Part shown: one piece after another, positions 8,700 to 63,200 of the stretch
Layout: each line of letters starts with the position of its first letter
How positions within the stretch are numbered: the stretch's first letter is position 1
IMG/VR virus record: IMGVR_UViG_3300035670_000170
Coordinates: 1-64,000 of that record
Length of the DNA: 64,000 nucleotides
Origin: a virus
Reading direction: 5' to 3' (one strand)
Program-made: the position numbers and the translations under genes
The notes under the pieces: model-generated
What the model was told of the DNA's origin: nothing
What the model saw: the letters and a program-made list of their open reading frames with translations, nothing else
Database searches by the model: none

Positions 8700-8718
8700 G
8701 CTTCTGTTTAATTATCGT

Positions 8719-8762
8719 TGGGGGATAAACGCTATAAATACGCCACAAGCCCCCAGTTAGCC
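8719..8762 (-). repeat. attC-like site, GGGGCTTGTGG family
   Basis: On the minus strand GGCTAACTGGGGGCTTGTGG ... GCGTTTATCCCC forms a hairpin of about 40 bases. It follows the stop of the gene at 8769 by six bases. Confidence 0.65.
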
Positions 8763-8768
8763 GTAATT

Positions 8769-9035
8769 CTAATCACGCCAAGTGATGTGCATTGCTTCTA
8801 ACTTATCGCCAAGTAACGAACTGCCATAGTTTTCAAACTTCATTTTTAGTGAAGGATATACTTCTAAATCATTTGGGCATTGTATTTTAAATGGTAGCTT
8901 TCGTTTATCTTCTGAAATTTGTAATGCTTCTAAAATGAAGTCATTCAAACTTTTGTCTTCGGAAGAAGAACTACGGATAACAACGTATTGCTGAACATTG
9001 CCATCTTCATCTGTTATTTGAACTTTGTATTCCAT
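8769..9035 (-). CDS. Cassette-borne hypothetical protein
   Basis: 88 residues from the ATG at 9035. Beta-strand N-terminus (MEYKVQITDEDGNVQQYVVI), then a serine-rich turn and mixed region. No family recognised. The gene is AT-richer than its neighbours and is followed by an attC-like hairpin and preceded by a shortened one, so it looks like a gene cassette inserted upstream of dnaB. Confidence 0.65.
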   Translation of the reverse strand: MEYKVQITDEDGNVQQYVVIRSSSSEDKSLNDFILEALQISEDKRKLPFKIQCPNDLEVYPSLKMKFENYGSSLLGDKLEAMHITWRD

Positions 9036-9076
9036 ATCAACTTTTTATTTTAAATTAAATATTTGTGCTTCTAAAT

Positions 9077-9108
9077 TGGCAACGTCAGCAATACGCAAAA
9101 CGTTAGGC
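9077..9108 (-). repeat. Short or truncated attC-like site
   Basis: GCCTAACGTTTTGCG on the minus strand matches one half of the site at 9312, ending in GTTGCC; the second long arm is missing. Confidence 0.45.
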
Positions 9109-9116
9109 ACAATTAA

Positions 9117-9293
9117 TTAAGCAGCATTCGGCCAATCATAATAAATTTGCTTAGTTCGCCAAAACCAAAAAGTGTAACCGAAGCATTCGACAAACATCGC
9201 TTCAAATTTCTTTTCACCTGTTTTGTAATTTGTGTGGAAAAACATTTTAGAGTTCCACTTTTTGTTTTTTGATTTGTACTTTTTAAAAACCAT
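9117..9293 (-). CDS. Small cassette-borne hypothetical protein
   Basis: 58 residues from the ATG at 9293 (MVFKKYKSKNKKWNSK). Basic N-terminus, aromatic-rich C-terminus (CFGYTFWFWRTKQIYYDW). It has the expected cassette layout: attC-like GTTAGGC, an 18-base leader, the gene, then an attC-like CCTAAC nine bases after the stop. No function known. Confidence 0.6.
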   Translation of the reverse strand: MVFKKYKSKNKKWNSKMFFHTNYKTGEKKFEAMFVECFGYTFWFWRTKQIYYDWPNAA

Positions 9294-9311
9294 TTTCGTA
9301 AAATTAACTGT

Positions 9312-9405
9312 GCCTAACAGCGTATATGTGCAATACGCTTCAAGCGGTTAGTAATAATTTAAAGTTTTGTCATTGCGTACTGCACATATACGCAAAACGT
9401 TATGC
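9312..9405 (-). repeat. attC-like site, full length
   Basis: 94 bases. On the minus strand it runs from R''-like GCATAAC to R' GTTAGGC (a perfect GTTRRRY). The arms pair almost perfectly (GCGTATATGTGCAGTACGC against GCGTATTGCACATATACGC), and each arm can also fold on itself (GCGTA...TACGC). Confidence 0.7.
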
Positions 9406-10896: not shown

Positions 10897-10939
10897 GGGG
10901 GCTAAACGCTATAAATACGCCACAAGCCCCGTGTTAGCT
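10897..10939 (-). repeat. attC-like site, GGGGCTTGTGG family
   Basis: Minus strand GCTAACACGGGGCTTGTGGC ... GCGTTTAGCCCCC; near-identical to the sites at 8719 and 32685. Confidence 0.7.
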
Positions 10940-11010
10940 GCAAGTGCTACATTGGTACTTCGTATAAAACTTTGGTGTTCAAAAATTTTATATAAAAAGC
11001 CACCGCACTT

Positions 11011-11730
11011 TTAAAACAATTCATATTCTGTTTTTAATAATTTATCTGTAACAAAATCAAAACAACTTTTATCAATATCACCTGCAATGTAATTTCTGCC
11101 TTCTTTTTTTGCTGTTACAAGCATATTGCCACCACCCATAAAGGGGTCTATTATTAGCCCTCCTTTTGGAGAGAAGCATCTAATCAATATTTGACATAGT
11201 TCTATTGGCTTTGTTGGTATATTACCCCCATCTTCTCTTTTTCTTTCTATGTTTAATAAATCATTCAGCCAAATCCCTTCTTTGCTATTAAAAAATGGGT
11301 TTGATTTTTCTTTATATCCATCAAAAACTAAATACCCTTTATCTCCTTGTTTGGTATTTGGGCTATACGGCATACCCGTTCTCGGATTAAAAAAGAAACT
11401 TTTTCCGCAACACCAAAATATTTTATGATACGAGTATGTAGGCATTTTATTTGATACCCAGTTACCTGTTTTTATATACTTCCATATTATCTCATTCCTA
11501 AAACAATAGTTTATTTGGTTTCTTAAATCGTAATCATACGGTTTCTTTGTAAACATTAGAATATTGCCAGTTTCTTTTAACACTCTAAAACATTCACTTA
11601 CCAAGCCATCGGCAATAAGTTTTACCCAATCTTGATAATTTGGGTCTAAAAATATTAAGTCGGCAGAATTATCATCAACTCCTGCAAGTAGTTCAAAACA
11701 GTCTTTTTGGTATATTTTATTTAATTCCAT
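11011..11730 (-). CDS. Site-specific DNA methyltransferase (N4/N6, DPNY type), cassette-borne
   Basis: 239 residues from the ATG at 11730. The catalytic motif IV is DPNY (LIFLDPNYQDW, about residue 33), a variant of DPPY; the SAM-binding FxGxG-like motif is DPFMGGGN near the C-terminus, giving the beta-class order. NIPTKPIELCQILIR is the usual conserved helix. It would methylate adenine or cytosine amino groups in a specific site, perhaps protecting phage DNA. The gene is markedly AT-rich and flanked by attC-like sites. No restriction enzyme is adjacent. Confidence 0.85.
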   Translation of the reverse strand: MELNKIYQKDCFELLAGVDDNSADLIFLDPNYQDWVKLIADGLVSECFRVLKETGNILMFTKKPYDYDLRNQINYCFRNEIIWKYIKTGNWVSNKMPTYSYHKIFWCCGKSFFFNPRTGMPYSPNTKQGDKGYLVFDGYKEKSNPFFNSKEGIWLNDLLNIERKREDGGNIPTKPIELCQILIRCFSPKGGLIIDPFMGGGNMLVTAKKEGRNYIAGDIDKSCFDFVTDKLLKTEYELF

Positions 11731-11844
11731 CGTTTTTTTCTTTTTGTTTTTCTGTTTTCGTTTTAAATTGTGCATCCTACTAAACTAATCGGGTCTGCAT
11801 ATATTATCTGATATTTCTTCATGTTTCTAAATTAAATTCGTAAA

Positions 11845-11872
11845 TAAATACGCCACAAGCCCCCAGTTATAG
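11845..11872 (-). repeat. Truncated attC-like site
   Basis: Minus strand CTATAACTGGGGGCTTGTGG CGTATTTA; the GTTTAGCCCCC arm is missing. The stop codon of the gene at 11867 lies inside it. Confidence 0.5.
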
Positions 11873-12025
11873 GTAATAAAATTTGCTAAGTACCCAACAT
11901 CCTGTAATTATGATGCAACTTACTGTTACGGTTCCTATTCCTATCCATACCAAGTCTCTGTTGGTTACATAAGGTTCATACCATTCACCACCTTCTCCTT
12001 TATCAAGCCATTCTTTTAATTTCAT
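11867..12025 (-). CDS. Small membrane protein in a cassette
   Basis: 52 residues from the ATG at 12025 (MKLKEWLDKGEGGEWYEPY). One transmembrane segment (WIGIGTVTVSCIIITGCWVL, about residues 27-46) and a short C-terminal tail. Its TAA is part of the following attC-like site, as is common in integron cassettes. Function unknown; a small inner-membrane protein. Confidence 0.65.
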   Translation of the reverse strand: MKLKEWLDKGEGGEWYEPYVTNRDLVWIGIGTVTVSCIIITGCWVLSKFYYL

Positions 12026-12043
12026 ATCGCAAATTTTACATAC

Positions 12044-12098
12044 CTATAACAGCAAATAAGAAACATTAAAACGATTGCTTATTTGCAAAACGTTATGC
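12044..12098 (-). repeat. attC-like site, short form
   Basis: 55 bases from GCATAAC to GTTATAG on the minus strand; arms GCAAATAAG and CTTATTTGC pair perfectly. Starts nine bases after the stop of the gene at 12108. Confidence 0.65.
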
Positions 12099-12107
12099 GT
12101 AATAAGA

Positions 12108-12347
12108 TTAATCGCAGTCTTGACATTTATAGTCTTGTTTGATTATACCCAATTCCACGGGGCAATCTTCATAACCATATTTACAACCATGCTCAAAACA
12201 GCAATGTGTTCTATGTACTCCCCAACGCTCTTGTGGAATTGACGTTGTTGCAGACTTACTACGCACAACACGTAATAAATCCAATTGCTCACTTTCGTAC
12301 TGTTTAATGAGTGTCTTTGCTTCGTTGTATTGTTCTTCTGTTATCAT
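12108..12347 (-). CDS. Cys/His-rich conserved hypothetical protein
   Basis: 79 residues. The C-terminal half has a dense Cys/His pattern (THCCFEHGCKYGYEDCPVE ... KCQDC), which recalls a conserved phage and bacterial family with HCCxxHGCKYGxEDCPV. It is likely a zinc-binding protein; the role is unknown. It is the first cassette gene after the motif at 12390 in array B. Confidence 0.65.
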   Translation of the reverse strand: MITEEQYNEAKTLIKQYESEQLDLLRVVRSKSATTSIPQERWGVHRTHCCFEHGCKYGYEDCPVELGIIKQDYKCQDCD

Positions 12348-12389
12348 AGTTTTGTTCTTTTAATTCGCAACTGTATTTATTACCAACCG

Positions 12390-12405
12390 TTACCAAATCG
12401 GGCGA
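12390..12405 (+). repeat. Dispersed motif copy, form F
   Basis: TTACCAAATCGGGCGA, preceded by CG; right bound of array B, just after the stop at 12411. Confidence 0.85.
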
Positions 12406-30140: not shown

Positions 30141-30546
30141 GCGCCCCGACAAAATATCGGACAAGGACTGGTATGAAATGCTTGAAACGTTTTTGTTTCA
30201 GATTTCATCGGCACAGCCATTGGCTAAACTGTACCGTGGTATCAACAAGCAGTTAGAGGACTTGGCGGCTATGCTTAATGAGGACATTGAGATTGAGGAC
30301 AAGGATGATGATGGTAATGATAGGATACTCAAGGTAAAGCTAATGAGTTACAAGAGTATGTCTGCGTCCAATGACAAAGCCGTTGAGCGCTTTATCAAGA
30401 TTGTTGACAGCCTCCCAAAGCTAATTGAAACACAGTCCATGCTTGAGAACAAGTTAAGCCCCGAAACGATGGAGCGCCTTGACGCCCTTAACACGGACGA
30501 AAATTCAGGTGTACTTGAAAAAGCCTTAAAGATTACAAACGGATGA
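30133..30546 (+). CDS. Possible small terminase subunit
   Basis: 137 residues. Helical, acidic C-terminus (LSPETMERLDALNTDENSG). No helix-turn-helix is obvious. Its place directly before, and overlapping, the large terminase gene is where small terminase subunits usually lie, so this is a positional guess only. Confidence 0.45.
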   Translation: MIKRPDKISDKDWYEMLETFLFQISSAQPLAKLYRGINKQLEDLAAMLNEDIEIEDKDDDGNDRILKVKLMSYKSMSASNDKAVERFIKIVDSLPKLIETQSMLENKLSPETMERLDALNTDENSGVLEKALKITNG

Positions 30547-32663
30547 TGCACCCCAAAGACTTCCAACGCACAAAGGAGATACCCGACGGTGATGGGAATG
30601 TCTTTGTCATCCAACTGCCTGAACCACCCGAAAGGGAGTTAATAGACAACTGGGACAAGCCCCTTAAGGAACAGCGGTGGCGCCCACCGTCTATCCCCAA
30701 TGGTTTTAACCTATGGGGTGAAGACCAGCAGGTTGCGTATGTGGGCCAAGAACTAATGCGTAGGCGCAATGGTTATTGGTTCTACAACAATGGGAACATA
30801 GAGTACATGACGGGGCTGCACTACTTCTACTGCGGCTACTGGAAGATAGACAGTGGGTACCCCGACTGGCGCGATGCCGACAGGGACTTCTTTTACGTGT
30901 GGGACTACTGCGCCAAAGACACCAACTGTTATGGGTTGCTGTACATCTGTGACCGCCGTTCGGGTAAGACGTGGAAGGGTACCACCATACTGTATGCCGA
31001 TACATCCACGACACGGGAGGTAAACGCGGGTATCCAGTCTAAGAACGACGGTGACGCAGAGAAGATATTTGAGAAGATGATTTCGTCGTGGCGTAAGCTA
31101 CCGGATTTCTTTAAGCCCCTTGATTCCGGCGCTATGGCACCAAAAAAGGCGCTACGGTTCTCACCCCCGTCGGCAAAGAGTACAAAACAAAATATCCGTG
31201 CGCTAAAGGGGCGTGAGTACCTTGAGAGTGTCATCGACTATAAGCCATCCAACGAATACGCCTACGACGGCAGTAAACTGTTTCGGCTGTACCACGATGA
31301 GGTAGGAAAGAAAAGCAATGCCAACCCATACAACAGGTGGTTAGTGTGTAAACCCTGTTTGGAGGTTGGTGATACGATTGTCGGGAAAGCATACCTGTCA
31401 TCCACGGTGGAAGAAACAGACAGGGAGGGCGGTGAGCCTATTAAGAAGCTGTGGGACAAGAGTAACTTCGCCACCGATAAGTTAGACGGTAACGGTCGCA
31501 CAGAAAGTGGACTGTACAGGTATTTCAAGCCAGCGACAATAGGGTTACAGGGCTTTATTGATGAGTATGGTTACAGCGTTGTTGAAGACCCCAAAGAACC
31601 AATACAGGGCATCGACGGTAAGATGATTACCATTGGTTCAGCGACGTTCATTCAAAACAGGAGAAAGGGCAAGACTGGCACTGACCTTAACAGTGAGCGC
31701 CGTAAGTACCCATTTAACATTCAGGATGCGTTTGTGCTTGACAGCCGTGGTGAAACATTCCCATCGCATAAGATTTATGAGCAGAAGGACTACAACGATT
31801 CGTCCACCCGTATGCCGTGGCGTATCGGGAACTTCGTGTGGGAGGATTCCAATAGGACGTCGGTGGTGTTCCGTGACGACCCTAACGGGCGGTGGAAGGT
31901 CGCGTGGATGCCAGACGCATCGGATAGGAACAGGTATGAGATACGCGGTGGTCAGCGATGCCCGTTAAACGAAACACTGGGGGGTATAGGTGTTGACCCC
32001 TTTGACCACAACACCACGGTAGACAAAAGGAACTCCAACGGCGCCATAGCCGTGTTTAGGAAGTTCACCCCGTTAGCCCCGAACATATCTAACTGTTTTG
32101 TGTGCCTGTACCTTGCCCGACCGGAAACGTCGTTACAGTTTTATGACGACGTGGTTAAGACGGCTACGTTCTATGGGTACAAAGCCCTTGTTGAAAACCA
32201 GAAGATAGGGTGTATTAACTTCATGCGCCAGCAGGGGTACTATGGGTATGTGAAGCGCACTAAGCATAATGAGTTTACCAAAACGGGCGCCAAGACAAAG
32301 ATGGTCGATGGTATATCAATGGCAGGGGATATGGCACGGGAAGCCCTTGTCGATGGGTTACACTTGTACATCTATGACTTTATTGGCAGGATAGCCCCTG
32401 ACATACAGATTAGCAAGATTGGGATACCTGAAGGGGAGGTTAGTGATGCTATGTTTGGGTTCTGCCCGTTTGATGAACTACTTGATGACTGGCTACACTT
32501 TGAGGTTGATAACTGGACTAAGTACGATGCTACTGTTGCGTCTGGGTTAGCAAAGCTGTGTGTTCAACAGATAGAAAAGGTTGAAGCCAACGCGGGTAGA
32601 AAGCCTAATGTAGGGCCACTGTTTAATGTACGCAGTGCAAGGTCAGGTAGGATTATGCGGTAA
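30543..32663 (+). CDS. terL: Terminase large subunit
   Basis: 706 residues. The ATPase P-loop is CDRRSGKTWKG (about residue 136), the Walker A variant of terminases. The C-terminal nuclease starts with GGIGVDPFDHN (about residue 481), the first acidic residue of an RNase H-like fold, with further acids in IYDFIGRIAPD. It cuts and pumps DNA into the prohead through the portal. Bacteroidota phage terminases of about 700 residues are usual. An exact motif copy (F, AA variant) at 32275-32290 encodes TKTGAK. Confidence 0.9.
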   Translation: MMHPKDFQRTKEIPDGDGNVFVIQLPEPPERELIDNWDKPLKEQRWRPPSIPNGFNLWGEDQQVAYVGQELMRRRNGYWFYNNGNIEYMTGLHYFYCGYWKIDSGYPDWRDADRDFFYVWDYCAKDTNCYGLLYICDRRSGKTWKGTTILYADTSTTREVNAGIQSKNDGDAEKIFEKMISSWRKLPDFFKPLDSGAMAPKKALRFSPPSAKSTKQNIRALKGREYLESVIDYKPSNEYAYDGSKLFRLYHDEVGKKSNANPYNRWLVCKPCLEVGDTIVGKAYLSSTVEETDREGGEPIKKLWDKSNFATDKLDGNGRTESGLYRYFKPATIGLQGFIDEYGYSVVEDPKEPIQGIDGKMITIGSATFIQNRRKGKTGTDLNSERRKYPFNIQDAFVLDSRGETFPSHKIYEQKDYNDSSTRMPWRIGNFVWEDSNRTSVVFRDDPNGRWKVAWMPDASDRNRYEIRGGQRCPLNETLGGIGVDPFDHNTTVDKRNSNGAIAVFRKFTPLAPNISNCFVCLYLARPETSLQFYDDVVKTATFYGYKALVENQKIGCINFMRQQGYYGYVKRTKHNEFTKTGAKTKMVDGISMAGDMAREALVDGLHLYIYDFIGRIAPDIQISKIGIPEGEVSDAMFGFCPFDELLDDWLHFEVDNWTKYDATVASGLAKLCVQQIEKVEANAGRKPNVGPLFNVRSARSGRIMR

Positions 32664-32670
32664 TTTTGCC

Positions 32671-32686
32671 GCGCCCGATTTGGTAA
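32671..32686 (-). repeat. Dispersed motif copy, form R
   Basis: GCGCCCGATTTGGTAA eight bases after the terL stop; left bound of cassette array C. Confidence 0.85.
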
Positions 32687-32744
32687 CGTTTTGCGGTTAT
32701 CGGGGGCTAAACGCTATAAAACTACCACAAGCCCCGTGTTATGT
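32685..32744 (-). repeat. attC-like site, GGGGCTTGTGG family
   Basis: Minus strand ACATAACACGGGGCTTGTGG ... GCGTTTAGCCCCC, then CAAAACGTTACC, where the GTTACC end runs into the dispersed motif. Confidence 0.7.
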
Positions 32745-32750
32745 GCCATT

Positions 32751-32942
32751 TTAAGAACACTCATCACACAATACACTATCTCTTTTGAAAGTCCAACCTT
32801 TATGAATTAACTTTTCAGCAAAGTAATAATCATCTGTGTTGTAGTCTTTCTCAACCTTTTTACACTTTTGGCACTGTATTGAACATTCAACCAGTATTGC
32901 TTCTTGGACTTTCTCAAAAATCAGTTCTTCTTTCTTTGTCAT
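32751..32942 (-). CDS. Cassette-borne zinc-binding-like protein
   Basis: 63 residues from the ATG at 32942 (MTKKEELIFEKVQEA). Two CxxC pairs (CQKCKK and CDEC) suggest a zinc ribbon. It is AT-rich, on the strand opposite to terL and portal, and lies between two attC-like sites, so it looks like an inserted cassette. Function unknown. Confidence 0.65.
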   Translation of the reverse strand: MTKKEELIFEKVQEAILVECSIQCQKCKKVEKDYNTDDYYFAEKLIHKGWTFKRDSVLCDECS

Positions 32943-32960
32943 AATCTGAATAAAAACGGC

Positions 32961-33053
32961 ACATAACAAAGGCTAAAAAGCATAGCCTGACAAGTTAGTG
33001 CTAATTTTAAAGCGTGATTAATAGGCTACGCTTCTTAGCCTCGACCGTTGGGC
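32961..33053 (-). repeat. attC-like site, full length
   Basis: 93 bases. On the minus strand R'' is GCCCAAC (perfect RYYYAAC) and the end is GTTATGT; arms GGCTAAGAAGCGTAGCC and GGCTATGCTTTTTAGCC pair with each other. R'' begins four bases after the stop of the gene at 33058. Confidence 0.75.
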
Positions 33054-33057
33054 GCAA

Positions 33058-33270
33058 TTAAAAGCGACCCGTAAACAGAACATTCGGAATATCACGATAA
33101 TTTACCGTGTGTTCGTTGATGTATTTAGCGGCATCATTTTGTGCTTCACAAGCACCTTCTTGCCAGCATTTTTCAGCAAACTGACGAAGTATCTCTACAC
33201 TTGCCGCTAAATTCTCACTTTGCATTAATTGTTCTGCAATCTCTTGTAATTCTTGTTCTTTGTTATCCAT
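33058..33270 (-). CDS. Cassette-borne acidic helical protein
   Basis: 70 residues from the ATG at 33270 (MDNKEQELQEIAEQL). Helical, acidic, with a short C-terminal strand region (NYRDIPNVLFTGRF). Located between two full attC-like sites. No family known. Confidence 0.65.
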   Translation of the reverse strand: MDNKEQELQEIAEQLMQSENLAASVEILRQFAEKCWQEGACEAQNDAAKYINEHTVNYRDIPNVLFTGRF

Positions 33271-33290
33271 TTCGTTTGAAAATTAACCGC

Positions 33291-33385
33291 GCCCAACAGC
33301 GGTTTAGCGCAATGCCGCTGAGAGTGCAGTGGTTAAAATTAAGTTTGTAATATGCGGCACTGCGCCAAGCCGCAAAACGTTACAC
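33291..33385 (-). repeat. attC-like site, full length
   Basis: 95 bases, from GTGTAAC to GTTGGGC (perfect GTTRRRY) on the minus strand. Arms GCGGCTTGGCGCAGTGCCGC and GCGGCATTGCGCTAAACCGC pair. The GTTGGGC end is followed by an 18-base leader and the start at 33270. Confidence 0.75.
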
Positions 33386-33400
33386 TAATAAAACGGGCGC
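33386..33400 (+). repeat. Dispersed motif copy, form F (variant)
   Basis: CTAATAAAACGGGCGC region directly after the attC-like site; right bound of array C. Confidence 0.7.
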
Positions 33401-33474: not shown

Positions 33475-35910
33475 GTGGATAAGGACACAATAGCAAAGCA
33501 CCTATCTGAAAGCCCCTTCCCTAACCTTCAGATAGACCCAAAGATAAAAGCCACCCCTGACTTTGGGCTAAAGGTGGCAAAGCACATATACTACCGCAAC
33601 AGCTACGACAGCACCATCACGGGGCGTTCCATAAAGATACGTACCAACAGGATGTATTCGGAGGGTAGACAGCCAATAGAGCAATACTACCCATACCTTG
33701 ACGCAGACATCCAAGGGCAGAACGACGGTACCATGCTTAACATCGCGTGGGACATCGTTAGCCCAGCACCAAAGTTCGTCAGCCTCCTACTGGGGGATAT
33801 GATTAACCAAGACTACAAGATTCAGTTTAACGCCATAGACCCCTTTAGCCGTACAGTATTCAGCAAAGCCCGCGACGAATACTACGGTAAGATCGTCCGT
33901 CAGCAGATGGCAGATGAAATAAGCCGACAGACAGGGGTAGCCTTAGAATCAGCGATGGGGGAGGGCGACCCCGTGACACCCGATGAGATAGAACTGCACA
34001 TGAGTATGTCCTTTAAGCAGGACGTCGAACTGGCGTTTGAGGAAGGGGTGGACTTTGAGTTGTACAACAACAACGTCAAGGAAGTAGCAAAGAAAGTGTG
34101 CCGCGACCTGATAGAGAACGCAAGCGGTTGGTGCTGTGCATACTTCGATGAGAACAAGCGCGTCCGCTTTAGGTACGTTGACCTTGAGTACGTCGTTACC
34201 AGTGCCAGCAACCAAAACGACTACCACGACGCGGACTACTTCGGGGAGGTTCGCCTTATATCTATACGGGAACTGCGCCGTATAGCGTCCGAGCAGGGGC
34301 TACTATCGGAAACAGACCTGTTCAGGATAGCAAAGATAAACAGCGGTCAGTTCAGTAACCCACGGTGGGTGTACGGGGACGTGTACAACTCCGCAGGGGT
34401 CTACAACGGGATGTACTACAATTACGACGATTTCAGGGTAGAAGTGCTGGACTTCCTGTTGTACACTATTGATACTGTTAACTACGAATGGCGCGAGAAC
34501 AAGTACGGCAACCACTTCCTGAACAGGAAGGACTACGGGTACGTACCGCCCAAGGAATCGAAGTACAACAAGGAGAAGATAGAGAAGGATATTGAACAGG
34601 AATATGCTGGGGTGTTTATCCCGTCGTACAACAAGATGGTCAAGTGGGGGAAGTCCGAGAATATGCTCCGTCAAAAGAGCAATGGCTCTATCAGCGCCCG
34701 TTGCGTCCGTAAGTACATCGGATATGCCATCAACAACCGCTATGGCGACCCTGTTTCCATGTTAGACCGTATCAGGGTTCACCTTGACAACATACAGATT
34801 CTATCGCTGAAGATGCGGCAGTTTGTCGCTGAAGCCACCCCACCGGGCGTTGCCGTGGACGTTGACGCCTTAACAGACGTTACGCTGTCTGCCGCCCAGT
34901 CCATGACACCCATGCAGATTGTAAAGATGTTCAAGCAGAAGGGTGTCCTTATTTACAGCCGCCGTTCGTCTATCGACGGGGAGTATATGAATGGCGCCCC
35001 GTTAGAGAACCTACCCAATGGCATCGGTGACGGGTTACAGCCGTTTATGAACGCCATACAGTATGAGATGGCACAGATACGGGAGTACACGGGTATCAAT
35101 GAAGCGGTGGATGCCACCAAGCCTGACAAGGACGCCCTTGTGGGGATACAGAAGTTACAGATTGCCAATAGCAACAACGCCACGCGGGAACTGTATTCAG
35201 CGTGGATTCACGGTATCTATGAGCCACTGGGACACACGTTAGCTGCTATGATTCAGAAAAGGCTTATGTACGACCCCAAGGCTTTTGAGGAATACAGTGC
35301 GGTGTTCGGTAAGATGGGGGCATCGGTGATAAAGTCCCTGAAAGATAGGGTTGACACCGTTGAGTTGGGTATTAAGACAGAGGCGTTACCTGACGCTGAG
35401 GCCGTGGAACGGATGGAAGGGTATATCGTGGCGGCGCTTACAAGTGGCACCATTGATATTGAGGATGCTATATTGCTGCGTAAGGTGATGAACGTAGGTC
35501 GTGCCGAGCAGATGCTTATTGTGAAAAAGCGTAAGCGCCAAAAGGCTATGATGGAGGAGCAGCGGCAGAAGGAGATGATGACTGCCGAGCGCGAGAAGAT
35601 GGCTGCACAGGCAAGGGCAGAGGCCGATATGATGGTTGAGCAGACGAAGTTCCAGTTTGAAATGGAGAAGCTGAAGAAGAAGTACGAACTGGAAATCGAA
35701 CTTGAGAAGGTTAAGGGTGAGAACCTACGTGCTGTTGCCCATATCCGTGGGGCTAATGAGATTGACAAGATTGAGGTAGCGTCACAGATTAACAAAGACA
35801 TCCAAGATGAGGCGAGTGCTATTACCCCTAAAGGTAAAAGGGACTTAGTGCCGGGTATGCGTGACCCTAATGTTAACACAGACCCTATGGGTGCTGCTAT
35901 GGAAGTTTAA
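33475..35910 (+). CDS. Portal protein
   Basis: 811 residues with a GTG start. Its place after terL and before scaffold and capsid, its length, and typical patterns (PYLDADIQGQNDGTM, PPGVAVDVDALTDVTLS, YTGINEAVDATKPDKDALVGIQ) match large portal proteins of Bacteroidota podoviruses and crAss-like phages. The C-terminal 130 residues are a long charged coiled coil (KRQKAMMEEQRQKEMM). It would form the dodecameric ring through which DNA enters and leaves. Direct family recognition is moderate; context is strong. Confidence 0.85.
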   Translation: MDKDTIAKHLSESPFPNLQIDPKIKATPDFGLKVAKHIYYRNSYDSTITGRSIKIRTNRMYSEGRQPIEQYYPYLDADIQGQNDGTMLNIAWDIVSPAPKFVSLLLGDMINQDYKIQFNAIDPFSRTVFSKARDEYYGKIVRQQMADEISRQTGVALESAMGEGDPVTPDEIELHMSMSFKQDVELAFEEGVDFELYNNNVKEVAKKVCRDLIENASGWCCAYFDENKRVRFRYVDLEYVVTSASNQNDYHDADYFGEVRLISIRELRRIASEQGLLSETDLFRIAKINSGQFSNPRWVYGDVYNSAGVYNGMYYNYDDFRVEVLDFLLYTIDTVNYEWRENKYGNHFLNRKDYGYVPPKESKYNKEKIEKDIEQEYAGVFIPSYNKMVKWGKSENMLRQKSNGSISARCVRKYIGYAINNRYGDPVSMLDRIRVHLDNIQILSLKMRQFVAEATPPGVAVDVDALTDVTLSAAQSMTPMQIVKMFKQKGVLIYSRRSSIDGEYMNGAPLENLPNGIGDGLQPFMNAIQYEMAQIREYTGINEAVDATKPDKDALVGIQKLQIANSNNATRELYSAWIHGIYEPLGHTLAAMIQKRLMYDPKAFEEYSAVFGKMGASVIKSLKDRVDTVELGIKTEALPDAEAVERMEGYIVAALTSGTIDIEDAILLRKVMNVGRAEQMLIVKKRKRQKAMMEEQRQKEMMTAEREKMAAQARAEADMMVEQTKFQFEMEKLKKKYELEIELEKVKGENLRAVAHIRGANEIDKIEVASQINKDIQDEASAITPKGKRDLVPGMRDPNVNTDPMGAAMEV

Positions 35911-35923
35911 CCCTTTCTTTGCC

Positions 35924-35939
35924 GCGCCCGTTTTGGTTA
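35924..35939 (-). repeat. Dispersed motif copy, form R (AA variant)
   Basis: GCGCCCGTTTTGGTTA between the portal stop and the opposing HNH gene stop. Confidence 0.85.
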
Positions 35940-36515
35940 CTTTTGTTTGCCCTGAATAAACTCGCTTAACTCCTGATCGCACACATGACCAAAGTGCTGC
36001 TTGTAAAAAGCGTAACTCGCTAACTTAGCAGTACAATTTTCTGCCTTTTGGATGTCGTGTATCTTATTGTGGCACGTTCTACAAACAGGCCAAACCCATT
36101 CAACCTCATCCGGCGTGTTAACCTTGTGGTAACTTATGTGGTGTAGCTGTATCGGCATATTCTGACAGAACATACATTCCCGATACTTTTGCTGACGTCT
36201 AAGAAATGCGTGTATGGCTTGCCACCTTTTTGACTTGTAGTACGTGTTAGTGCTAAACGTATAGTTCTTAATAATCGGTATGTCGGCAATAGTCTTTACA
36301 GTGGGCTTTGCTGGCGGGTTAGCATTTAGGTTGTATAAGTACCAGTAGAACTTTTCTGTTATTTTTCTACCAACAACCTGTGATTTCCAACCCTTAAATA
36401 ACGGATATGGTAAACCGAGAGCCTCCGCAACAGCGCGTGTCAGGGTGCCATTTCTGCTAATATCAGACAGCCTTTTCTCTGTCAGTATGAAATCAGGTAT
36501 ATAGTTGCTTCTCAT
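35937..36515 (-). CDS. HNH homing-type endonuclease
   Basis: 192 residues. The HNH module is clear: CMFCQNMPIQLHHISYHKV, then WVWPVCRTCHNKIH, with paired Cys for zinc and the catalytic His-His. The N-terminal part has a likely DNA-binding region (LTRAVAEALGLPYPLFKGW). It sits on the strand opposite to the virion operon, between portal and scaffold, as free-standing homing endonucleases often do. Confidence 0.85.
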   Translation of the reverse strand: MRSNYIPDFILTEKRLSDISRNGTLTRAVAEALGLPYPLFKGWKSQVVGRKITEKFYWYLYNLNANPPAKPTVKTIADIPIIKNYTFSTNTYYKSKRWQAIHAFLRRQQKYRECMFCQNMPIQLHHISYHKVNTPDEVEWVWPVCRTCHNKIHDIQKAENCTAKLASYAFYKQHFGHVCDQELSEFIQGKQK

Positions 36516-36534
36516 TTATGTATAATAAGTGTAA

Positions 36535-37278
36535 TCATATAGAGTATTCAAGCATTGCACGCACAAGCACTGTTGACCCCATTATGAAAGCCCCCTTCAG
36601 TTCAATGTGTTTAAGCATGGCTGGTGTTATGTCAACAGCGATGTATTGACCCCCACCTATTTTTATCTGCCCTGCTTTCTCCATTGACCGCAGCAGGTTC
36701 CATGCCGTCATGCGTGACACCTGAAGGATGCCAGCCCAACGTGTGATGCTGCAACGTGCTTTTAGGTCAAATGCGGCCTGACCTGTGTGTATAACCCGCT
36801 TTTGGTCAACCCCCAATCCAGCCCCGGTTTCATAAAAGCCCCATAGTTTTATCAGTTGCTTCTTGCTTTTACCCCGGACTTGTCGGTAGTTGAGCGTGTT
36901 CAGTTTGGCACACAGCCCTTCCCGCTTTCCAATTTCCTTTACGATGATATGTTTCCTAATCTCATTAGGTATGTCTTTAATGTTGTCGTATTCGATGTCA
37001 ATATAGTAGTAAGCCTTTTTCACGAAGTGCTTTGGGCTAACAAACGTCATGTTCCCTTTTAGCATCCGGCAGAAGCCGTGTGTGAGCCACCCTTTTTGGT
37101 AGCGTGATATGCTGGCGTAGTTGATTCCTGATTTGTCGGCGGCGCTGCGTACCGTCCACTTGAAGAAAGTGCCGTTTTTGTATATGGACTTCATGTGCAG
37201 CCACACCGACAGGGATGGTAGCCCTATGGTTGCCGATGCGTATTTGTACAGTCCGTATGAAACAGTTGCCTTTTTCAA
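36535..37278 (-). CDS. Predicted winged-helix DNA-binding protein
   Basis: 247 residues. Two helix-turn-helix-like segments are seen: FKWTVRSAADKSGINYASISRY (about residue 40) and ITRWAGILQVSRMTAWNLLRSMEKAGQI (about 180), the second with the look of a winged helix (IKIGGGQYIAVD wing). The layout recalls replication initiators or transcription factors. It is antisense to the late operon beside the HNH gene and has its own minus-strand promoter box. No family is certain. Confidence 0.55.
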   Translation of the reverse strand: MKKATVSYGLYKYASATIGLPSLSVWLHMKSIYKNGTFFKWTVRSAADKSGINYASISRYQKGWLTHGFCRMLKGNMTFVSPKHFVKKAYYYIDIEYDNIKDIPNEIRKHIIVKEIGKREGLCAKLNTLNYRQVRGKSKKQLIKLWGFYETGAGLGVDQKRVIHTGQAAFDLKARCSITRWAGILQVSRMTAWNLLRSMEKAGQIKIGGGQYIAVDITPAMLKHIELKGAFIMGSTVLVRAMLEYSI

Positions 37279-61583: not shown

Positions 61584-62054
61584 ATGGCAGTTACTATAAA
61601 TAATCAGACGGCATTATACGCCAATGTGAAAGACACTTTTCCGCAGAGCGAGTCCCTTACGGGCACTGCTTCCACTATGAGCAGAAAAGATAGGCTTATT
61701 GGCAGCGGTACTGCTTTTGTTTCTGAACTTGAAACTGGTGACTTTATTTGGGACACTGTTAATGATGAATTGTTAAAGGTTGTTAGCATAGAGAGCGACA
61801 CTGAGTTGACCCTTAGTGGAGAGTTTAGTAACGCACTGAGTGGCGCTACTATAAAAAGAGTTCCGAGAATACGTTATCAGTCTTTCAGTTATTTAATTGA
61901 CAGTTCAAGCGGTGAAGAGATTGACGGTATATTGATGCCTGATGGTGCAAGTGCTACATTTGCCATTTCAGACCATTATTCTAATATGGGCAATCCAATT
62001 ATTATTGATTCAACTGTTAATGATGGAAATGTAATTATTTCATTCTTTGCTTAA
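61584..62054 (+). CDS. Beta-rich tail-associated protein
   Basis: 156 residues. Strand-rich, Ser/Thr-rich, with pattern GTAFVSELETGDFIWD common in short fibre or baseplate proteins. It begins the fibre region and has its own promoter. AT-richer than the genes to its left. The stop overlaps the next ATG (TAATG). Confidence 0.6.
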   Translation: MAVTINNQTALYANVKDTFPQSESLTGTASTMSRKDRLIGSGTAFVSELETGDFIWDTVNDELLKVVSIESDTELTLSGEFSNALSGATIKRVPRIRYQSFSYLIDSSSGEEIDGILMPDGASATFAISDHYSNMGNPIIIDSTVNDGNVIISFFA

Positions 62055-62111
62055 TGGGGGCATTTGGGAAAAGCGGTAGTGGTATTTACAAGATGGGTGG
62101 TGATGGTGCAT
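62054..62111 (+). repeat. 58-base direct repeat, copy 1
   Basis: Exact repeat of 63143-63200, covering the first 19 codons of both fibre genes. Confidence 0.95.
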
Positions 62112-63077: not shown

Positions 63078-63142
63078 TTTTTATAGTTTACACAAGTATA
63101 TTTTTTTTTACAAAAGATTATACTTATTTTATTCTTCGATTT

Positions 63143-63200
63143 ATGGGGGCATTTGGGAAAAGCGGTAGTGGTATTTACAAGATGGGTGGTGATGGTGCAT
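63143..63200 (+). repeat. 58-base direct repeat, copy 2
   Basis: Second copy; could allow recombination between the fibre genes. Confidence 0.95.

Follow-up and report, generated by a model that had tools for sequence, protein, structure and literature searches.

Integron-type gene cassettes between the terminase and portal genes of a phage point to a large, apparently undescribed integron-like system

As two small genes on the opposite strand separate terminase from portal in the phage studied here, we wondered how they came to lie there and whether they are integron-type cassettes, as a first-pass annotation had proposed. The window analysed, 64,000 nucleotides long, covers positions 1-64000 of the IMG/VR virus record IMGVR_UViG_3300035670_000170 (G000), which totals 68,976 bases. 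Because the record ends in a 103-bp terminal direct repeat (1-103 and 68874-68976), we regard the phage genome as circularised and apparently complete at 68,873 bp (68.9 kb). Terminase and portal are 811 bases apart, and this space is taken up by a pair of small genes on the minus strand, along with two attC-type sites (Table 1). The two antisense ORFs are AT-rich, as had been pointed out, with GC contents of 32.3% and 38.0% compared with 49.8% and 50.5% in the flanking genes. Both start from their own ATG downstream of the site, and their leaders are as short as expected, at 18-20 bases where 18 had been given.

Table 1. Features of the terminase-portal insert, its flanks and the related elements of the phage.
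Feature	Position	Strand	Remark
Terminase large subunit, left flank of insert	30543..32663	+	phrog_6681, E 2.8e-102
Boundary element (attI-like), proximal array end; crossover G^TT after 32738	32702..32738	+	recurs at 8720, 10897, (11830), 66059, and in phage G001
Cassette 1, gene and own attC-type site	32739..33047	-	crossover positions
Cassette 1 gene, 63 aa from ATG	32751..32942	-	family match: none
attC-type site of cassette 1	32961..33053	-	score 15; fold z -2.5 on minus strand
Cassette 2, gene and own attC-type site	33048..33379	-	33047-33382 92% identical in contig L228
Cassette 2 gene, 70 aa	33058..33270	-	protein 97% identical in L228
attC-type site of cassette 2	33291..33385	-	score 14
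Portal protein, right flank of insert	33475..35910	+	phrog_6547, E 6.1e-84
Second array: genes 8769-9035, 9117-9293; sites 8975-9108, 9312-9405; boundary element 8720	8718..9399	-
Third array: N6/N4 methyltransferase 11011-11775, genes 11867-12025, 12108-12347; sites 12044-12098, 12263-12395; boundary element 10897	10898..12389	-
Dispersed motif, example positions	730, 9419, 20845, 32671, 37714, 43681	both strands in record

To set the sites against chance, we scanned for RYYYAAC and GTTRRRY boxes joined by a stem, with eight shuffled genomes as control. The insert sites scored 15 and 14 and sites elsewhere in the genome up to 17, whereas the maximum in the shuffled genomes was 11 (n=8). Applied to the full record of 68,976 bases, a strict version of the scan, in which spacers had to measure 4-7 nt on one side and 0-3 on the other, returned eight sites, all on the minus strand, compared with a total of three in 12 dinucleotide shuffles. 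Both insert sites carry the RYYYAAC and GTTRRRY boxes ascribed to them and, in addition, an inverted-repeat stem. Plus-strand crossovers at G^TT follow positions 32738, 33047 and 33379 and therefore delimit the two cassettes as 32739-33047 and 33048-33379. As in a CALIN or integron array, the insert thus holds at least two attC sites in the same orientation (R''/R' boxes plus stem) with small ORFs, and its cassettes are discrete mobile units with G^TT limits. An Rfam search gave no match, and nothing was found when a 54-nt site was searched by blast against isolate phages and plasmids. Among loci L243-L322, site lengths fell into three discrete classes of ~54, 92-95 and 130 nt, with start codons tending to occur only in the longest.

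A third full attC site had been placed at 32685. This candidate was rejected, as the strict scan has no match there and the sequence folds no better than its shuffles (z ~0). The element appears instead to be an attI-like or terminal boundary element, for which a role as attI may be proposed. It reads GGGGCTAAACGCTATAAATACGCCACAAGCCCC followed by G^TTA and is found at the same end of every array, joined to different genes. No copy was seen beside any recombinase, other viral contigs gave one occurrence only, and the pattern had no match in bacterial genomes. The insert had further been described as bounded by motif R at 32671 and motif F at 33386. The motif copies are indeed present at both places, but the role of array boundary did not hold: this 12-20 bp motif, TACCAAATCGGGCGC-nnCAAA, is dispersed over the whole record in 48 copies on both strands, both between and within genes. 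The window alone has 42 matches with 1.6 expected, and 20 of the 48 copies lie within large genes. As the intragenic copies use all three reading frames, the motif is evidently kept at the DNA level. Copies abut three of the four arrays of the genome, and in two of these the distal crossover is followed by TTACCAAATCGGGCG; viral contigs had no match to the pattern.

The four arrays are the insert itself and those at 8.7-9.4 kb, 10.9-12.4 kb and 66-68.5 kb, the last lying past the window end. In the second array, gene 8769-9035 starts within its own site. This gene and gene 66106-66369 are paralogs, and the outer site stem differs between them on both sides, its right half being coding. At 67803-68360 of the record, a stop at 68.2 kb interrupts an MT-A70-type methyltransferase cassette, and the 10.9-12.4 kb array retains, at 11790-11825, what is left of the truncated start of a similar gene; cassettes decay in place. 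Elsewhere in the window, a further insert on the antisense strand, weakly matching HNH and HTH_23, lies between portal and the next structural gene (35937-37278), where relatives have a short gap, and an 80-nt repeat (62032-62111 and 63121-63200, 94% identical) gives two adjacent structural genes the same N-terminus (MGAFGKSGSGIYKMGGDGA).

Genome comparison had been suggested as a way to find phages lacking the insert, and such phages exist. Terminase and portal are spaced by ~60 bp in four relatives found via terminase, by roughly 100-125 bp in isolate phages, and by a cassette-free gap of ~264 bp in a distant relative with the same terminase and portal families (G024); the junctions in relatives leave no room for the two genes. 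Nor did the genes prove to be core genes of related phages, the observation named beforehand as speaking against an insertion. The protein of ORF 33058 is 97% identical to one encoded by an otherwise unrelated phage contig, IMGVR_UViG_3300022752_000494 (L228). At the DNA level, 33047-33382 is 92% identical there, and both ends of the match lie no more than 3 nt from the predicted crossovers, in a locus otherwise unlike this phage save for a weak match to a neighbouring site. A second phage record of 36 kb, G001, has stretches in common with this phage around 62-66 kb and over the end-start junction. On the flank of the 66-68 kb array, the two are ~98% identical until CCCCCAG^TTA, and similarity resumes at ACG^TTA; between these points G001 has wholly different genes in three cassettes, two of them methyltransferases. 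More broadly, in 33 pairs of loci with a common site body and different sequence after it, identity stopped within 6 nt of the crossover in 20. Empty junctions, the recurrence of cassette 2 with ends at the crossovers and an array swapped at G^TTA together give strong sequence support to the proposal of integron-type cassettes inserted between terminase and portal.

The integrase that a complete integron would carry was sought in the record of this phage with PF00589 and TIGR02249, and neither matched. In contrast, about ten site-bearing viral records have a tyrosine recombinase adjoining the array (264-286 aa where intact), and G024 has both array and recombinase. The best PDB match of the phage recombinase is archaeal XerA (131 bits; IntI4, 102 bits), and in the IntI4 alignment the IntI-specific stretch is absent. 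None of the phage enzymes reached an NCBIfam cut-off, and in a 39-row tree IntI forms one clade (100/100) with the phage enzymes outside it in at least two groups, so that by missing insert, score and tree position the enzymes of related phages are not the IntI members expected of complete integrons. A search anchored on the enzyme yielded 157 relatives on contigs of up to 362 kb, of which 80 were kept; 46 distinct loci had 2 kb or more of upstream sequence. Every one of these 46 usable loci had upstream sites on the recombinase strand: 231 in all, compared with 6 on the opposite strand, 8 on the downstream side and 3 in shuffles. In many loci, a conserved box YAAC|TATTATATATAA stands shortly ahead of the enzyme gene, at the place expected of attI. 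The isolate phages with the nearest recombinases, Ingeline and Freya, had no clear arrays. Terminase, portal, tape-measure and baseplate matches support the phage identity of several records; as the phage marker PF03237 caught only 4 of 26 records, several loci were assessed with PHROGs.

Array coding in the phage loci amounts to 22.5 kb on the recombinase strand compared with 3.4 kb on the other, so that cassette genes of related phages are not transcribed away from attI as in a complete integron. In Bacteroidota IntI control loci, the polarity of sites relative to the integrase is mostly that of the phage loci, and cassette genes lie opposite the integrase strand in five of seven; as they share its strand in the remaining two, the trait is not exclusive to phages. 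The canonical unit of a gene plus the site that follows it was dropped, since the match in L228 carries the site ahead of the gene. Judged from such comparisons, a mobile unit consists of a site and the gene after it in reading direction: where a long site body is conserved between two loci, it is accompanied by the following gene in 13 pairs and by the preceding gene in one. Fifteen further pairs have the following gene in common and a different site, where a strict unit of site plus following gene predicts otherwise, and exchange at the other box, or site divergence, therefore also occurs. In-site starts, defined as an ATG in the site that reads at least 40 codons across the crossover into the next gene, were present in 51 of 97 long sites of a first set (1 of 121 on the opposite strand), in 72 of 138 of the recombinase-anchored set (against 8), and in none of the eight sites available from IntI controls, a small number. 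The TAA of the TAAC box doubles as the stop codon of the gene before the site in 23 of 87 cases.

One form of the site has a length of 49 nt, TAACAGC-stem-CATTAAAACGA-stem-CGTTA, and occurs three times in this phage. It is present in at least 118 IMG/VR stretches, compared with 20 stretches in 84,980 prokaryote genomes, several of which have other lengths and look like chance matches. Across 45 distinct copies, many stems differ yet remain complementary, a case of stem covariation. Five bacterial genomes that carry this type were tested for IntI over cut-off, and none had it. Some Bacteroidota chromosomes (L210, L211, L218, L221 and L174) have attC-like sites near tyrosine recombinases without over-cut-off IntI status, in a layout that differs and is often convergent; they are possibly a bacterial counterpart.

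Taken together, we consider it likely, with a probability of roughly 0.8, that the insert consists of two mobile cassettes of a phage-borne integron-like system, in which a tyrosine recombinase cutting at G^TT would act here in trans. Comparison itself brings out the cassette anatomy, the shared cassette, the replacement of an array at a single locus, where the breaks lie at G^TTA, the association of recombinase and array, and the in-site starts. Each cassette would be a small gene with a hairpin-forming attC-type site, and the recombinase would cut at G^TT and join cassettes to an attI-like boundary site or to each other. Catalysis is probably by the phage recombinase, and stem covariation and folding suggest that its substrate is the folded single-strand hairpin. 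The boundary element may be the receiving (attI) site of this phage. As the recombinase is absent from its genome, the arrays of this phage would be filled and reshuffled in trans, with the enzyme presumably supplied by a co-infecting phage or the host. Many other phages encode a XerA-like enzyme of their own, without the IntI-specific insert, directly beside their arrays. Cassettes such as the methyltransferases may form an exchangeable supply of accessory genes, probably for counter-defence.

That gene junctions between structural genes are common positions for morons raises the question of whether the two genes are simply that, inserted by illegitimate events and resembling attC by chance or through decay. 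The other antisense insert after portal, with its weak HNH and HTH matches, would suit such an origin, but the site scores exceed those of shuffles and cassette 2 recurs in another record with unrelated flanks in a match that ends at the crossovers, leaving this explanation scarcely credible. Hairpins could also be terminators or RNA-processing signals, with the mosaic arising by homologous recombination between repeated hairpins and no site-specific recombinase involved. Identical or near-identical sites across phages would indeed give homologous crossovers too; however, the breaks cluster at G^TTA and not throughout the repeat, the arrays are linked to a tyrosine recombinase, and many sites overlap coding starts, which would be odd for terminators, so we regard this as very improbable.

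A more serious contender, though still unlikely, is an ordinary CALIN, in which cassettes are occasionally captured from a chromosomal integron of the host by host IntI, with the phage recombinases uninvolved, an origin already proposed for attC clusters of other virulent phages. This phage encodes no recombinase, over-cut-off IntI genes were found in 84 of 297 sampled Bacteroidota genomes, and IntI1 is able to recombine attC sites of phage origin, recombination having been measured for one from Polaribacter phage P12002L (PMC9892861). P12002L has sites of a geometry similar to those of this phage, one with an in-site start. Set against capture by host IntI are the rarity of the short (49-nt) site type in bacterial genomes, with five tested carriers lacking over-cut-off IntI, and the phage-encoded non-IntI recombinase that stands beside the arrays in 46 of 46 loci.

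Phage CALINs are already known, as attC clusters in virulent phages with methyltransferase cassettes and no IntI nearby (Qi et al. 2023, PMC9892861), and the arrays described here resemble them in all three respects. Whereas that work reported few cases from an IntI-centred pipeline, the arrays are widespread here, lie at four dispersed loci of one phage, and in other phages stand beside a recombinase that the phage itself encodes and that lacks the IntI insert. With chromosomal and mobile integrons they share G^TT crossovers and attC-type sites, and with Bacteroidota IntI loci also the polarity of sites relative to the recombinase; the attI-like box, a candidate attI, likewise lies by the 5' end of the recombinase gene. 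They differ in that the phage recombinase lies outside the IntI clade and lacks its insert, and in that phage cassette genes point to the recombinase, with the site preceding the gene and in many cases supplying its start codon and first residues. The reverse integrons already known from Treponema denticola have intI and cassettes in a single direction (PMC7691350, PMC4909258), and the recombinase and cassette genes of the phage loci likewise read the same way. However, in Treponema it is intI that is reversed, with the cassettes downstream, whereas phage arrays lie upstream of a recombinase that faces the array as usual; here the cassette genes are the reversed ones, and the recombinase gene comes last. 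Among the open-access journal papers searched, we found no account of a phage-encoded non-IntI recombinase that combines an attI-like box with inverted cassettes and starts inside the sites, and provisionally the phages thus appear to have a large, undescribed integron-like system.

We lean, with less confidence than for the insert itself, towards a phage-adapted class of integron that extends across phages probably of Bacteroidota, up to huge-phage size. It would combine a XerA-like recombinase without the IntI domain, inverted cassette genes, and sites that double as translation-start modules, so that shuffling would yield new N-terminal fusions; phages that lack the enzyme, such as the one studied here, would have several dispersed receiving sites and draw in trans on a shared cassette pool. 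Because searches that require the IntI domain would label such loci orphan attC clusters, the definition of an integron would widen. Lytic phages are usually thought to reshuffle genes via homologous or illegitimate recombination. DNA methyltransferases recur among the cassette genes, and a dedicated phage-encoded cassette system would amount to a site-specific route for the exchange of small accessory genes among otherwise unrelated phages.
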